A stretch of 64,000 nucleotides of DNA from Streptomyces asiaticus. Its GTDB lineage: Bacteria > Actinomycetota > Actinomycetes > Streptomycetales > Streptomycetaceae. The translations under genes and the position numbers were made by a program. The stretch is taken from positions 5,270,001 through 5,334,000 of the forward strand of contig NZ_JAGSHX010000006.1 in the NCBI RefSeq assembly GCF_018138715.1, in the 5' to 3' direction. Of this stretch, positions 18,778-24,508 are shown piece after piece. Under the pieces are notes generated by a model that saw nothing but the letters and a program-made list of their open reading frames with translations, was not told the origin of the DNA and made no database searches. Every line of letters starts with the position of its first letter. Within the stretch, counting starts at the first letter, position 1.

Positions 18778-19146
18778 GTGATCATCGGCGTCGGCATCGA
18801 CGTCGCCGAGATCGACCGCTTCGACGACGCGCTCCGGCGCACCCCAGGGTTGGCGGACCGCCTGTTCGTCGAGCGCGAGCTGTGGCTGCCGAGCGGGGAG
18901 CGCCGCGGCATGGCCTCCTTGGCCGCCCGCTTCGCGGCCAAGGAGGCGCTGGCCAAGTCCCTGGGCGCCCCCGGCGGCCTCCGCTGGACCGACGCCGAAA
19001 TCCTCACCGAGCCGACCGGCCGCCCCCGCCTCTCGGTCCGCGGCACGGTCGCGGTGTGCGCGCAGCGGCTGGGGGTGCGGGGCCTGCATGTCTCGCTGAG
19101 CCATGACGCGGGGGTGGCGTCGGCGGTCGTGATCGCGGAGGGGTGA
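18778..19146 (+). CDS. acpS: Holo-[acyl-carrier-protein] synthase
   Basis: Transfers 4'-phosphopantetheine from CoA to acyl carrier proteins of fatty acid and polyketide synthases. 122 residues, normal for the family. Metal-binding [10 protein letters not shown] at the N-terminus, and [12 protein letters not shown], where the Glu coordinates magnesium. [18 protein letters not shown] forms the C-terminal strand pair. GTG start 37 bp after glmS, so it is likely co-transcribed. In most streptomycetes nnrD and alr follow directly; here an island intervenes. Confidence 0.95.
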
Positions 19147-19260
19147 GCGCGGGTGCGGGTGCGGGGGCTCCGCCCCCACGCCCCCGCCGGGGCTCCGCCC
19201 CGGACCCGCGCGGTCGCTCCGGTGACGGGTGTGGTGCGGGTGCGTGGGTGGTGCGCCTGC

Positions 19261-19444
19261 TGTGCGTGGTGGGTGCCGGGGGCGGGGCCTCCGGTGCGGC
19301 GTCCTGGACCGTATATTTACGGCGCCGTTAGCCGGGAACGTTGGGCGGGCCGGAGATTGGCGCCACAAATACACGTAAGCGTCCAGGACACCACCCCTCC
19401 GACCCCACCCCCTCCCGCCTCGTCGGCGGCTACCCGCCGGTGGG
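19261..19444 (+). repeat. Palindromic element, copy A
   Basis: First of three related copies. Inverted arms at 19302-19326 and 19359-19388 share TCCTGGAC, an A+T-rich ATTTA/ACAAATA segment and GGCGCC, so the element can fold into a long imperfect hairpin with a 32-nt centre. Conserved flanks run from the TGTGCGTGGTGGG start to a 3' tail ending CCGCCGGTGGG. The 372 bp between acpS and the next gene consist mainly of this element preceded by GGGGCTCCGCCCC-type hairpins. Confidence 0.75.
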
Positions 19445-19518
19445 CCCGGCCCGTCCGATAGGGTGCGCCCGCCAGGGCCGTTCCACGACAAGGGCAAGCC
19501 GCCGAGGCCTGACGCCGG

Positions 19519-19884
19519 TCAGTCGGCGTCCTTCTCGATCGCCTCGAAGATGTCCGCGTCCGTCTCCTGCTGCCAGCCGGGAAGATCCGGCCAGTCGGCG
19601 ACGTACCCGGGCTTCGGGTCCTCGAAGTGCCGGTACATCTGCGCGGTCCAGCACGTAGCGACGAAGCGCCCCTTCTGCTCCCGTGCAAGTCGCCCGGCGT
19701 GCCCTTCGCTCACCTCCAGGAACTGCCTCACCTGCTCGTACACCGCCCCAGCAGCCGCCCGCTCCCACTCCGGGGTCTCCTCCCAGGGGGTCACATACCC
19801 CGGCTTGGGCTCCCCGGGAAAGTGCCGCCGCACGCCCGCGATCCACGCCTCCCGGAACAGCCGGGCACCCTCGGTCCGTGACAT
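19519..19884 (-). CDS. Unknown protein with two PKPGYV repeats
   Basis: 121 residues. The sequence is an internal duplication: each half contains RHF, PKPGYV, a Trp, a short spacer, P-x-W, then a hydrophobic helix (residues about 20-55 and 84-117). Similar PKPxYV...DADIFE proteins are, from memory, scattered in Streptomyces accessory regions and phages, without known function. ATG start at 19884, 14 bp after the stop of an upstream gene fragment on the same strand, so it was once part of an operon. Confidence 0.7.
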   Translation of the reverse strand: MSRTEGARLFREAWIAGVRRHFPGEPKPGYVTPWEETPEWERAAAGAVYEQVRQFLEVSEGHAGRLAREQKGRFVATCWTAQMYRHFEDPKPGYVADWPDLPGWQQETDADIFEAIEKDAD

Positions 19885-19898
19885 CCCTGCCCCTTTCG

Positions 19899-20033
19899 TC
19901 AGTTCACGCTCAGTGCCTTGATCTCGGCATCCAACTCGGCAACCCGCACATCGCGAGCGAGGGAGCCGAAGTCCGTACGCAGGGCCTGGAGTCCACGAGC
20001 GACGTAACCGAGGGTGACCTCACTGGTCCTGCG
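19899..20033 (-). pseudogene. 3' fragment of a coding sequence cut at element B
   Basis: About 45 codons that read as a helical C-terminus (VARGLQALRTDFGSLARD, then VRVAELDAEIKALSVN and stop). No start codon or ribosome site is found in frame. Further upstream the frame runs into palindromic element B, where it becomes repeat sequence. The stop lies 14 bp before the PKPGYV gene. The simplest reading is a gene whose 5' part was lost when the element inserted or recombined here. Confidence 0.45.
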
Positions 20034-20081
20034 GCGCGGGTTGCTTGTGCGGGTGTGTGGTGGTTGCTGTGGTGCGCCCGC

Positions 20082-20266
20082 TGTGCGTGGTGGGTGCCGG
20101 GGGCGGGGCCTCCGGGGCGGCGCCCTGGACCGCACATTTACGGCGCCGACGGACGATGATCGTTGGGTTGGCCGGAGATTGGCGCCACAAATATGCGTGA
20201 GCGTCCAGGACACCACCCCTCCGACCCCACCCCCTCCCGCCTCGTCGGCGGCTACCCGCCGGTGGG
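20082..20266 (+). repeat. Palindromic element, copy B
   Basis: Same orientation as copy A and nearly identical to copy C in the conserved part. Arms about 20123-20147 and 20181-20209 end in GGCGCC; the centre contains the perfect palindrome ACGATGATCGT, which would form the hairpin tip. It ends 3 bp before the stop codon of the minus-strand gene at 20269, and begins near the break of the gene fragment at 19899-20033. Confidence 0.75.
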
Positions 20267-20268
20267 CG

Positions 20269-20577
20269 TCATGACTCGTCCTGGTCGCCGTCCTCGTCGT
20301 GGAGTCGTCTGCCTCTGCTCTCGGCCACCCGCAGCACATCGCGCAGTGCCTCACAGAGCCGGTTTGCGAGGAAACGGAGCTCTCTCGCGTCTGCCTTGCG
20401 GTCACCCAGCAGGGCTCGGGCGTGGCCGAGGAGCTCCGTCCCCATGGACAGCTGGAGTGCCTCGATCTGGTCCGCACGTCGGTTCAGGGAACTGTCGTCG
20501 CTGTCCGATGCCAGATAGCACGGCCTGCCCTCCGGGTCGGACCAGGGCAATAAGCGAAGGCCGGTCATCGTGTTCAT
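20269..20577 (-). CDS. Small protein of unknown function, regulator-linked
   Basis: 102 residues from ATG 20577, with GGGAGG on the minus strand 7 bp upstream. It starts MNTMTGLRLLPWSDPEGRPC, then a long amphipathic helical part (IEALQLSMGTELLGHARALL, ELRFLANRLCEALRDVLRVAES) and an acidic end. No domain is recognised. Leu9 is encoded by TTA (20551-20553), the rare bldA codon, and Leu10 by TTG, unlike the core genes nearby. It is divergent from the TPR regulator gene, a pairing that suggests linked control. Confidence 0.7.
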   Translation of the reverse strand: MNTMTGLRLLPWSDPEGRPCYLASDSDDSSLNRRADQIEALQLSMGTELLGHARALLGDRKADARELRFLANRLCEALRDVLRVAESRGRRLHDEDGDQDES

Positions 20578-20845
20578 CCGGCGGCCTCCCGGAGAGAGGC
20601 GAGAACCGCTCTCACCCATTCGAGGGCATTGGCCATAAAGTGGTTCATGTTCATCAGCTCCTGTCAGCTGGTGGGCCGCGCCCCCGGACGTCCCGCAACG
20701 TCGCGGGGGTCTTGCGTAAGTCCACCGCTTCGGCGGGTGCCATGGGCCATTGATGACCGGACTTTTGGGCGGACGTTTCCGTCTATGCCGGGCGGGCGAA
20801 ATCGCTACGGTGAGGGGGACGGTTCGCGAGTGGTGGGGGATGCGG

Positions 20846-22111
20846 ATGGCAGGCACAACGCTGGCATCGCTGCGCTGCGCGGCGGGATATACGCAGGTGA
20901 CCTTCGTCGCGGCCTTCGCCCGCGAGGCCGCCCGCCTGGGCATCGACGCCTCGGTGAGCGTCCGCCATCTCCGGCGGTGGGAGAGCGAGTCGCCGCCGCC
21001 ATTACCGCACCCGAGCCAACAGGCCGTGTTGGAGGCGATGTTCGGCCTTCCGCTCGCCGAGATGGGATTCGACGTCCCGTCGCACCGCTATTCGACGGTC
21101 GAGAGGATCGGCGACGATGGAGAGGTGAATCGTCGAGCGTTTGTCACGGGGTCGGGTGTCATCGCGGCGGTGGCCCTCTCGCACCAGCAAGGTCCGCGTG
21201 TCGGTGCTAGCGAGGTGGCGGCGTTCCGCGCACGGCTGGCCGATCTTTACACCGTCGACCACCGGTCGGGCGGAATTCCCGCGAAGGCGCGTGCCACGCA
21301 GCTGGAGCAGGAGATCACGCGCGTGCTCAACAGCAGCGTCTACATGAGCAGAGTGGGCCGTGACCTTCACACCATGCTCTGTGAACTCGCTTGTCACCGC
21401 GCCTGGTTCGGATACGACGGTGGGCCTCCTGAACAGGCTCGCGCCGCCTGCATGGAGGCGATGACGGCGGCACAGCTCATCGACGAGCCCCTATTGCAGG
21501 TTCGCGCGCTCAATACGCTTTCCCTGCTCTCCGCCGATACAGGCCGCATGTGGGAGGCGACATCGGCTGTCGAGAACGCGTACAGCCTCGCCCGCCGGGC
21601 AGGCGCGGGTGCCACGGTGCATTTGGTGATCTCATTGCGCGAGGCCAGCGCGGCGACGCATGCCGGCGACTCGGCTAGTGCAGGCCGCGCGCTGAGCCGA
21701 GCCGTTTCCTACCAGGGACGTACGGACACGGACACGGACGTACCGAGGTGGGCGCGGTTCGCTGGTCCTGTCGAGGTGGATTACGCGACGGCTGCCTACT
21801 ACACCGGGAGAGGACAGCTCACGCGGGCCGTCCCGTTCCTGCGCTCGGCGGTTGCCGGTCTCGGTGGTGGCTATACCCGCAACACCGCCTGGTACCGGGC
21901 CCGACTCGCGCAGACGCTGTTCGACACGAACGAAGTGGAGGAGGCGTGCCACGAGATGATGGGCGTACTCGACGCTTGTAACGGGGTGTCCTCGGAGAAG
22001 TTGCGTCGTCGCCTGCATGCATTCGAGCGGATCGCCGTGCGCGCCGATGTTCCCGCTGCGCGAGACACCGTGGAGCGCATCCGCGAGACAACGAGAGGAG
22101 GCAGCCGATGA
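20846..22111 (+). CDS. Helix-turn-helix regulator with TPR-like C-terminal region
   Basis: 421 residues from ATG 20846 (GGTGGGGG upstream). The N-terminal 75 residues resemble a DNA-binding HTH (TTLASLRCAAGYTQVTFVAAF, SVRHLRRWES). A linker follows, then about 270 residues of alpha-helical repeats (EQARAACMEAMTAAQLIDEP, ALNTLSLLSADTGRMWEATS, TAAYYTGRGQLTRAVPFLRS) like the TPR sensor of many Streptomyces regulators. G+C at third codon positions is lower than in the flanking core genes, consistent with transfer. Its stop overlaps the GNAT gene start (ATGA). It may regulate that gene and the divergent small gene. Confidence 0.75.
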   Translation: MAGTTLASLRCAAGYTQVTFVAAFAREAARLGIDASVSVRHLRRWESESPPPLPHPSQQAVLEAMFGLPLAEMGFDVPSHRYSTVERIGDDGEVNRRAFVTGSGVIAAVALSHQQGPRVGASEVAAFRARLADLYTVDHRSGGIPAKARATQLEQEITRVLNSSVYMSRVGRDLHTMLCELACHRAWFGYDGGPPEQARAACMEAMTAAQLIDEPLLQVRALNTLSLLSADTGRMWEATSAVENAYSLARRAGAGATVHLVISLREASAATHAGDSASAGRALSRAVSYQGRTDTDTDVPRWARFAGPVEVDYATAAYYTGRGQLTRAVPFLRSAVAGLGGGYTRNTAWYRARLAQTLFDTNEVEEACHEMMGVLDACNGVSSEKLRRRLHAFERIAVRADVPAARDTVERIRETTRGGSR

Positions 22112-22674
22112 CGACGCCAGAGACGATCACGATTGAGCACATGGATGGTGCCGCTGCGGCGCGGGCCGAGGACGCGTTCACTCTGGTCTATGCCGAGGCG
22201 TTCGCCGAACCGCCATACGACAAGACTTCGGACTCGATCGACGCGAACTTCCGGCGGTTCCGCTCGCAGGTCCGGAAGAAGACCTTCTCAGCCGCCCTCG
22301 CCCGCACAGGCGACGGTGAGCCGGTCGGCATCGCCTACGGCTATCCGCTGAGCCCGAGCACCGGCTGGTGGGACCGGCTCACCACACCGGTCAGCGACGA
22401 GCTGCGCCGTGAGGACGGACATCGGACGTTCGGCCTGATGGAGCTCGCCGTACGGGCTCCGTGGCGCCGTCTGGGGGTGGCGCGCCGCATGCATGAAGCG
22501 GTGCTCACCGACACGACAGCCGAGCGCGTGCTGCTCAACGCGCGGCCGGACGTCGAGGCCGCGCAGGCCGCGTACCGGTCGTGGGGGTACCGCAAGGTGG
22601 GGGAGGCCCACCCGTGGGAGGGCGCGGTGCTGCATGACGTGATGGTGCTCGACCTACGCGGATCGGGCGGATAG
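22108..22674 (+). CDS. GNAT-family N-acetyltransferase
   Basis: 188 residues. The acetyl-CoA-binding motif A is seen at LMELAVRAPWRRLGVARRMHEAVL (R-R-L-G-V-A), and the C-terminal strand/helix at ARPDVEAAQAAYRSWGYRKVGE. The acceptor is unknown. It is translationally coupled to the TPR regulator (4-bp overlap), and its stop codon lies within the 5' edge of element C. With the regulator it forms the cargo between the inverted copies B and C. Confidence 0.8.
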   Translation: MTTPETITIEHMDGAAAARAEDAFTLVYAEAFAEPPYDKTSDSIDANFRRFRSQVRKKTFSAALARTGDGEPVGIAYGYPLSPSTGWWDRLTTPVSDELRREDGHRTFGLMELAVRAPWRRLGVARRMHEAVLTDTTAERVLLNARPDVEAAQAAYRSWGYRKVGEAHPWEGAVLHDVMVLDLRGSGG

Positions 22675-22843
22675 CCGCGGGACGGCGGGAGGGGGTGGGG
22701 TCGGAGGGGTGGTGTCCTGGACGCTCACGCATATTTGTGGCGCCAATCTCCGGCCAACCCAACGATCATCGTCCGTCGGCGCCGTAAATGTGCGGTCCAG
22801 GGCGCCGCCCCGGAGGCCCCGCCCCCGGCACCCACCACGCACA
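22664..22843 (-). repeat. Palindromic element, copy C (inverted)
   Basis: Reverse complement of copy B. Bases 22685-22843 are nearly identical to B, including the ACGATCATCGT centre and GGCGCC arms. The outer 20 bp (22664-22684) match more loosely and overlap the end of the GNAT gene. Copies B and C are therefore inverted repeats bounding about 2.4 kb. The rest of the gap to 22936 is C/A-rich (CACCACC-type) filler. Confidence 0.75.
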
Positions 22844-22936
22844 GCAGGCGCACCACCCACGGGCCCGCACGGCACCCGCACCGGCACCACCCACGCACCC
22901 GGCGCACCACCCAAGCACCCGCACCCAGCGGACACC

Positions 22937-24403
22937 TCAGGCCAGCACGTCCCGCCACGTGTCCGTCAGCGCCGTCGACACGTCGTACGCCGCGATGGGT
23001 GCGCCGTGCGGGGCCGTGGCGCGGCGGGCGGCCAGGCCGTGGAGGTAGGCGCCCACCGAGGCGGCGTCGCGGGCGGGGAGGCCCGTGGCGAGCAGGGAGC
23101 CGATCAGGCCGGACAGCACATCGCCGCTGCCCGCCGTGGCCAGCCAGCCGACGCCGGTGAGGTTGACGCGTACCGGCTGGTGCTCGGCGGCGATCAGCGT
23201 GGTCGACCCCTTCAGCAGTACGGTCGCGCCGTAGCGCTCGGACAGCGCCCGAACGGCGGCCAGTCGGCCCGCCTCGACCTCCGCACGGCTCACGCCGAGC
23301 AGCGCCGCCGCCTCGCCCGCATGCGGGGTGAGGACCGTGGCCGCTTCACGTTTACGCAGGTCACCGCCGGCGGGCAGCAGGTGGAGCCCATCGGCGTCGA
23401 CCAGGACCGGGACGTCGGAGGCGAGGACGTCCTCCAGGGAGTGCCGGGCCGCCGCGCCGTCGCCGAGGCCGGGGCCGACGACCCACGACTGGACCCGGCC
23501 CGCCTTGGCCGGGGGCCCGGAGTGGACGAGGGTCTCGGGGAAGCGCGCGATGACCGTGTCGGCCGCGGGGCCGACGTAGCGGACCGCCCCCGCACCGCCC
23601 CGCAGCGCGCCCGAGACCGCCAGCACGGCCGCGCCCGGGTAGCGGGCGGAGCCCGCGACGACGCCCACCACGCCCCGCCGGTACTTGTCGCTCTCCGCCG
23701 ACGGCCGGGGCAGCATCGCCGCCACGTCCTCGTGTTGCAGCGCCTCCACGTCGGGGTCGGCCGGGAGGTGGGCGTCCAGCCCGATGTCGACCAGCCGCAG
23801 GGCGCCCGCGTGGGTGCGGGCGGGGTCGATGAGCAGCCCCGGCTTGTACGCGCCGAAGGTGATCGTGGCGTCCGCGCGCACGGCGGAGCCGCGCACCTCG
23901 CCCGTGTCGGCGTCTACGCCGCTCGGCAGGTCCACGGCGACGACGATCCCGCGCACCGCCCGGACCAGCCGCTCCGCGTCGGGCCGCAGCCCGCCCTTGC
24001 CGCCGATGCCGACGATGCCGTCGACGACGAGATCGGCGCGGGCCACGGCCGCCTCGGCGGCACCGTTCGCCTCGCTTCCGCCGCCAACGGCGGTGACCAC
24101 CCGTCCGCCCGCCGCCCGCAAAGCGGCGAGCCCGCCCTCGTGCGCCCGGTCGGGGTTGAGCAGCACCGCCGTGACGCCCGCGCCGCGGCGGGCCAGTCGG
24201 GCGCCCGCGTAGAGCGCGTCGCCGCCGTTGTCGCCGCTGCCGACGAGCAGGGCCACCCGGGAGCCGTACACCCGGCCCAGCAGATCGGCGCACGCGGCCG
24301 CGAGCCCCGCCGCCGCGCGCTGCATGAGCGCTCCTTCGGGCAGCCGCGCCATCAGTTCGCGCTCGGCGGCCCGTACGGTCTCGACGCTGTAGGCAATCCT
24401 CAT
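22937..24403 (-). CDS. nnrD: Bifunctional NAD(P)H-hydrate epimerase / dehydratase
   Basis: Repairs damaged NADH and NADPH hydrates. 488 residues, a fusion of an N-terminal NnrE/YjeF epimerase (residues about 1-210; GSGDNGGDALYAGARLARRG, VDGIVGIGG, VDLPSGVDADTGEV) and a C-terminal NnrD/YjeF ADP-dependent dehydratase of ribokinase fold (VVGVVAGSARYPGAAVLA, LTPHAGEAAALLG, TAGSGDVLSGLIGSLLATG). ATG 24403 gives a start like homologues; ATG 24409 is two codons earlier. It is divergent from alr, the usual neighbour. Confidence 0.93.
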   Translation of the reverse strand: MRIAYSVETVRAAERELMARLPEGALMQRAAAGLAAACADLLGRVYGSRVALLVGSGDNGGDALYAGARLARRGAGVTAVLLNPDRAHEGGLAALRAAGGRVVTAVGGGSEANGAAEAAVARADLVVDGIVGIGGKGGLRPDAERLVRAVRGIVVAVDLPSGVDADTGEVRGSAVRADATITFGAYKPGLLIDPARTHAGALRLVDIGLDAHLPADPDVEALQHEDVAAMLPRPSAESDKYRRGVVGVVAGSARYPGAAVLAVSGALRGGAGAVRYVGPAADTVIARFPETLVHSGPPAKAGRVQSWVVGPGLGDGAAARHSLEDVLASDVPVLVDADGLHLLPAGGDLRKREAATVLTPHAGEAAALLGVSRAEVEAGRLAAVRALSERYGATVLLKGSTTLIAAEHQPVRVNLTGVGWLATAGSGDVLSGLIGSLLATGLPARDAASVGAYLHGLAARRATAPHGAPIAAYDVSTALTDTWRDVLA

Positions 24404-24508
24404 GCCCATAGTCTCCCGAACACAGGGCACTCCTTGCGTGGAAGCGAGGCACTCCGTGCGGAGAAGCACACACTCCGGTCGGGGGATCGGCCTGAGAGAC
24501 TGACGGAG

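Follow-up and report, generated by a model that had tools for sequence, protein, structure and literature searches.

The 64,000-nucleotide stretch of Streptomyces asiaticus DNA analyzed here (the window; contig NZ_JAGSHX010000006.1, positions 5,270,001 to 5,334,000) carries 3.8 kb between the core genes acpS and nnrD, and this interval contains three palindromic repeats of about 200 bp, designated A, B and C. We consider it likely that these repeats are copies of an ERIC/Correia-like structured element (about 200 bp, with a 43-pair hairpin) that promotes local rearrangement, and that the interval arose through a rearrangement. The repeat represents a dispersed structured family of Streptomyces that is apparently undescribed, and the acpS-nnrD interval looks like a rearrangement hotspot bracketed by its copies. 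A previous sequence-only reading had interpreted the region as a small non-autonomous mobile cassette; of this interpretation, we retained that the interval is accessory, is atypical in codon usage and has at its borders inverted copies of a palindromic element that is dispersed and inserts; the mobile cassette is not supported.

Repeats A and B share the same orientation, and C is inverted. B (20069-20241) and C (22684-22856) form an inverted pair of 173 nt with 99% complementarity, and A is a direct copy of B (94-95% alike); both relationships had been recognized in the sequence-only reading and were confirmed here, and chance resemblance is excluded by the presence of five full-length copies in the same genome. 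Aligned copies have in common a hairpin of 43 pairs with a five-base bulge on one arm. Across 65 distinct copies, 95.0% of the cells were paired (39.5-48.5% in slid controls) and 28 of the 43 pairs showed changes on both sides (9-12 pairs in slid controls), with the counts leaning towards the model structure because the 20-sequence alignment that set it overlaps the 65 scored copies. These changes point to a hairpin that is maintained by compensatory change. G-U pairs account for 12% of the cells, which suggests that selection acts on a single strand, be it RNA or DNA transposing in single-stranded form, and in 64 of the 65 copies the model strand gave the more stable fold of the two. Comparison with dinucleotide-shuffled sequences gave z values for the model and the other strand, respectively, of -7.1 versus -1.6 for C (-1.0 in another fold of the latter strand), -5.8 versus -2.0 for A, and -8.0 versus -1.4 for a further copy, D. 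A search of Rfam 15 with window positions 19000-23000 gave no match at E ≤ 1.

Besides the three copies in the window, the genome contains two full-length copies at 3.817 Mb and one partial match of 30 nt. The pair at 3.817 Mb (L007:2771-3492) faces outward between purine nucleoside phosphorylase-like (PNP) and phosphomannomutase-like (pmm) genes, with no convincing gene between the copies, and an outward PNP-pmm pair is present also in G055, G164 and Streptomyces sp. S465. Another pair brackets one gene between fbiB-like and cofC-like genes in G055, G164 and S465 (the fbiB, cofC, PNP and pmm designations, like the MFS-like, beta-lactamase-like and LysR-like ones, are names given by eye from translations). 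The interior of the PNP-pmm pair (L163, L165, L166) varies from 385 to 1049 bp in the four genomes; it also holds degenerate units of about 100 bp that by eye resemble the inner end of the repeat. At the cofC pairs, partner copies in one genome are 98-99% alike, compared with 88-98% across genomes, and the S465 PNP partners are 98% alike to each other. The idea that copies are homogenized in every genome was rejected: the cofC pairs and S465 conform to it, the PNP pairs in G055 and G164 do not. A covariance model built from 20 copies found matches in 20 of 23 chosen genomes, a set mostly picked for already having matches, with up to 33 matches each including antisense echoes. In a survey of 295 Streptomyces genomes the repeat was detected in 40 at E ≤ 1e-5, which is likely a lower bound because only ten candidates per genome were scored, with stricter filters, and a DNA search in which two candidates were scored per genome gave matches, mostly short pieces, in 80 of the 295 at E ≤ 1e-3. 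Within a sample of relatives, three of 25 Streptomyces (S. asiaticus included) and none of 16 genomes outside the genus carried the repeat, and the plasmids and phages searched gave no match at E ≤ 1e-3.

Comparison of orthologous sites, which were located in six genomes using flank segments of filled sites, indicates that the repeat is present at some and absent from others, and that it has inserted in frame into a coding gene. In G069 (L171:1381-3489), a biotin carboxylase gene contains a copy of the repeat, and in G000, S465, G164, G055 and G296 this gene is uninterrupted; the frame stays open through the repeat, about 60 residues are added, and the insert sits exactly where the match to the solved methylcrotonyl-CoA carboxylase breaks (residues 353 to 410). 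Of four genomes compared, S465 alone has a copy at the L178 site and G055 alone has one at the L172 site, and G000 is without the repeat at five sites common to two or three relatives. When the exact ends were inspected by eye in alignments for terminal inverted repeats, the inner end was CCACCGGCGG-like and the outer end read GGTGCGCC (reverse strand), with no match between them. Read for target duplication, the borders of the G069 insert are ambiguous within GC-rich sequence, and those at the L178, L172 and L176 sites are too diverged.

The repeat appears to lie mostly away from promoters, is far commoner between convergent than between divergent genes, and its close copies face outward. The counts behind this statement refer to 119 listed copies, from which antisense echoes were dropped and several genomes (e.g. 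G149, G197, G256 and G277) omitted, with orthologous copies counted separately. Neighboring pairs less than 5 kb apart were outward in 16 of 18 cases (one inward, one tandem), while more distant neighbors were in outward order in 15 of 82. Predicted neighbors, based on gene calls from our third-position G+C script, by which at least one neighbor (L015) was called in two ways, were available for 55 copies, placing 20 in convergent, 2 in divergent and 32 in tandem gaps, with one copy missing the neighbor on one side. In the tandem gaps the orientation relative to the genes was evenly split (16 against 16), and the absence of a bias speaks against insertion with a fixed polarity at gene ends.

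The acpS-nnrD interval itself was compared across named Streptomyces in 80 loci that were kept as best matches to the window nnrD and are thus not a random sample; 79 contained both genes and one lacked acpS. In 70 of the 79 loci the two genes were in tandem and the gap had a median of 88.5 bp, exceeding 1 kb in 7 of them; in the remaining nine, in which nnrD is inverted relative to acpS, the median gap was 4741 bp (7 of 9 over 1 kb). The comparison had been proposed in the sequence-only reading, whose statement that 3.8 kb intervene here holds; the window belongs to the inverted class, an arrangement not remarked upon before. The interval and its flanks consist of the following features:

18778..19146, plus strand: acpS (holo-ACP synthase), the left core flank
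19248..19445, minus strand: repeat copy A, with minus as the hairpin-forming strand
19519..19884, minus strand: PKPGYV gene, 121 amino acids, 99% identical in S465 at the same locus
19899..20017, minus strand: C-terminal tail of a regulator whose S465 form is longer (301 amino acids by our gene caller) and scores as NsdA family
20017..20036, no strand: junction between the end of the S465-like sequence and the outer flank of repeat B
20036..20267, minus strand: repeat copy B with its outer flank, reaching to within 1-2 bp of the small-gene stop
20269..20577, minus strand: small conserved gene, 102 amino acids, with one TTA codon
20846..22111, plus strand: NsdA-family TPR-like regulator with one TTA codon, passing the family cut-off (NF053720, 246.4 bits versus 75)
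22108..22674, plus strand: GNAT acetyltransferase, with its TAG stop inside the inner end of copy C
22666..22884, plus strand: repeat copy C, with plus as the hairpin-forming strand
22937..24409, minus strand: nnrD, the right core flank, inverted compared with most Streptomyces

Sequence identities show this interval to be a chimera, with a left part like S465 and a right part like Streptomyces NBS 14/10 and S. sparsogenes. Identity to S465 is 93% over positions 19140-20017 and stops inside the regulator gene; over positions 20276-22655, identity to NBS 14/10 and S. sparsogenes is about 75%. Between these blocks, positions 20036-20265 (B and its outer flank) are 93.5% identical to the inverted S465 C and 91.3% to S465 A (from 20047 on), whereas the B core alone is 98% identical to S465 A and 95% to S465 C. 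Because B lies at the boundary of two sequence blocks, beside the cut regulator, it appears to mark a rearrangement joint, and nothing seen would give it a role as the second end of a jumped unit. The interval of S465 (L039) has the order A, PKPGYV gene, longer NsdA-family regulator, ATPase, radical SAM protein and C; that of NBS 14/10 (L040) holds other genes followed by the small gene, regulator, GNAT and C, and that of S. sparsogenes (L038) the small gene, regulator and GNAT with no repeat detected. A, a transporter-like gene and a second gene (family names by eye) are found in G164, and beta-lactamase-like and LysR-like genes without the repeat in G069. In G055 the interval is only 204 bp long. 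It reads (L118:2802-2875) as two fused outer halves, that of A (G164-like) up to CCTCCGG and, directly after it, that of C starting at CACCCACCACG; the two halves meet at CCGG. We infer that G055 once held both A and C, and that the interval was deleted through them at the CCGG common to both arms. The check for empty sites that had been suggested earlier returned, in G055, what reads as a deletion scar; in four other short convergent acpS-nnrD gaps (G058, G035, L053 and L076; 24-220 bp), which belong to more distant species, no trace of the repeat was found, so that true empty sites of the interval may exist.

The gene content read from the sequence alone (PKPGYV gene, regulator tail, small gene, and coupled HTH/TPR regulator and GNAT) was present as claimed. 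The GNAT gene overlaps the regulator gene at 22108-22111, and its stop codon (22672-22674) lies inside the inner end of C, an arrangement that recurs in NBS 14/10. Each of the three window copies has its hairpin-forming strand in the sense direction of the inner-side gene (PKPGYV for A, the small gene for B and GNAT for C). The lower third-position G+C of the island also held, at 0.775-0.885 in four island genes versus a mean of 0.925 (standard deviation 0.033) in 49 predicted window genes, a control mean biased upward because these genes were chosen by our script, which itself scores third-position G+C. A TTA codon had been reported as well; it is present, although the island contains two, in the small gene (~20553) and in the regulator (~21002). 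The longer S465 relative of the cut gene likewise passes NF053720 (112 bits), matching only profile positions 155-431 of 432, and since its match starts at position 155 the S465 regulator as called lacks the N-terminal part. Relatives of the GNAT (E ≤ 1e-30) were found in 54 of 295 genomes, S. asiaticus included, and in 7 of 13 places fetched elsewhere the regulator stands beside it; no repeat was detectable in the 9-10 kb around these 13 places. Both proteins match phage families (regulator, phrog_10886, E 3.9e-39; GNAT, phrog_29377, E 1e-23), and the pair may therefore have travelled on phages. Relatives number 188 for the small protein and 1444 for the PKPGYV protein; among the best 120 of each, the named ones were Streptomyces for the former, and Streptomyces plus one Embleya and one Kitasatospora for the latter. 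The PKPGYV protein gave no match in Pfam (E ≤ 0.1), PHROG, PADLOC or NCBIfam (E ≤ 0.01). An anti-phage role of the window genes was considered and dropped, as none of four window proteins tested matched PADLOC at E ≤ 0.01. In S465 (L039:11628-14450), the PKPGYV gene is accompanied by genes for the NsdA-family regulator, for an ATPase that weakly resembles RsbA, and for a radical SAM protein whose PADLOC match is viperin-like (51 bits).

According to the explanation that we favor, the repeat would spread as a non-autonomous insertion, and RNA of its hairpin-forming strand would act as a 3' cap, i.e. as a processing or termination hairpin, on neighboring genes. Inverted near-identical copies would recombine and fold, leading to inversion, replacement or loss of the intervening DNA. 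At acpS-nnrD, A and C would be the older boundary copies, and a rearrangement would have joined the S465-like left part (A, PKPGYV gene and cut regulator) to an nnrD-side block (small gene, NsdA-family regulator, GNAT and C), with B sitting at the joint and the regulator-GNAT pair representing accessory cargo outside the repeat proper. A more speculative extension, to which we assign a rather low probability, is that the repeat works in outward pairs. A strong hairpin on transcripts exiting the bracketed interval would then insulate the convergent core genes from foreign antisense read-through, the inverted arms would allow the interval to be exchanged or deleted, and such a self-spreading bracket would create sites within the chromosome core at which accessory genes can dock safely.

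Three other explanations were weighed against this rearrangement-promoting repeat. In the first, B and C (or A and C) are the long terminal inverted repeats of a non-autonomous cassette that is mobilized in trans. This would fit the inverted near-identical ends lying flush with gene ends, the almost exclusively outward orientation of close pairs, as expected of terminal repeats, the differences in A-C content between species, and the four short convergent gaps without repeat trace. Yet the block of small gene, regulator and GNAT adjoins nnrD in the same orientation in NBS 14/10, where only C is present, and in S. sparsogenes, where no copy was detected; the paired loci compared have different interiors between constant flanking genes; relatives of the cargo occur at 13 other places without repeats; and the repeat was unmatched on the plasmids or phages searched. 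A second B-C unit was not found in the places inspected, which did not cover all of the genomes. We therefore regard movement as a cassette, as proposed in the sequence-only reading, as very unlikely. An element of REPIN/IS200-IS605 type, moved by a Y1 (RAYT-like) transposase, would attribute the strand bias to recognition of single-stranded DNA instead of RNA, and the strand-asymmetric hairpin, the bulged stem and the lack of a visible terminal inverted repeat fit with single-strand transposition. REPINs are likewise palindromic, intergenic and non-autonomous; they consist of two short REPs, whereas the Streptomyces repeat is one long hairpin and shows no clear Y1 association. Y1_Tnp (PF01797) had no match in G000, S465 (G295), G060, G240, G089, G224 and others, and matched in 9 of 20 genomes chosen as repeat-carrying versus 5 of 20 others; with 11 of 20 carriers, S. 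asiaticus included, being without a match, a Y1 transposase as the present mover is unsupported, and this explanation seems improbable.

Similarly, it appears unlikely that the repeat is static and vertically inherited, as a regulatory RNA or terminator under selection, such that apparent gains would be losses elsewhere. Sites common to several species (PNP-pmm in four genomes, fbiB-cofC in three), copies that at some sites track the site across genomes, the 20 to 2 excess of convergent over divergent gaps, and the five sites empty in G000, which would fit loss, are all compatible with such an RNA, whereas the in-frame insertion into biotin carboxylase, the two sites that are each filled in one of four relatives, and the patchy distribution across the genus are not readily explained by it. 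Several observations weigh against our own explanation as well. We identified neither a mover, the search having been for the Y1 family, nor a terminal inverted repeat or a target duplication. Three or four species have the repeat in common at several sites, so that much of the family is inherited vertically, and in G055 and G164 the PNP copies resemble each other by side (97%) more closely than their own partners (88-89%). The source of B is ambiguous, since its core favors S465 A and the longer stretch with the flank favors S465 C. The pair counts include orthologous loci and reduce to about 10 distinct outward loci versus 2 others. With regard to the hairpin, the shuffle z did not clearly favor the model strand in three of six folded copies (model/other strand: L015, -10.0/-9.2; L012, -2.9/-3.0; L016, -2.4/-3.9), the three clear results (C, A and D) all come from the S. 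asiaticus genome, and the intrinsic-terminator signature is absent, as no U-tract follows the hairpin and the sequence past the stem is GGCACCCACCACG-like.

In its general anatomy the Streptomyces repeat agrees with ERIC, Correia/NEMIS and Rickettsia palindromic elements (RPE) in size, stem-loop, intergenic position and occasional in-frame insertion, as these families are described in two reviews and a survey (PMC10969869, PMC2229807, PMC1590033). Most such families bear terminal inverted repeats. ERIC (also IRU or RU-1) is an enterobacterial sequence of 127 bp that is scattered, forms a stable stem-loop RNA and varies in copy number with the lineage (PMC10969869, PMC2229807). Scattered, intergenic location with some intragenic copies and a stem-loop are common to both; in contrast, terminal inverted repeats and target duplication are listed for ERIC (PMC2229807, Table 1), the host group is unrelated, and the outward-pair rule is not mentioned for ERIC in the passages available. 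The Correia/NEMIS elements of Neisseria form an RNA hairpin within transcripts that is cut by RNase III (PMC10969869, PMC2229807), and they too are small mobile palindromic repeats with an RNA hairpin, which for Streptomyces is a predicted one; they differ in having 24-bp terminal repeats with target duplication, neither of which was identified in the Streptomyces repeat. The in-frame insertion into the G069 biotin carboxylase gene resembles those of RPE in protein genes, although among the inspected copies of the Streptomyces repeat this is the one recognized intragenic case. The word Streptomyces is absent from PMC10969869 and PMC2229807 and occurs in PMC1590033 in the reference list only, and searches of open-licence literature, as far as accessible, yielded no repeat of ERIC/Correia kind in Streptomyces. 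In anatomy (about 200 bp, dispersed, stem-loop, presence/absence) the repeat resembles elements of the miniature inverted-repeat transposable element (MITE) type, a class to which its formal membership is not established. If the hairpin is transcribed and processed, its many similar copies would serve as naturally occurring structured sites at which RNA processing and transcription termination can be tested in Streptomyces. Moreover, the outward-pair rule together with the deletion scar offers a sequence-level route to study the turnover of accessory genes inside the conserved Streptomyces core.

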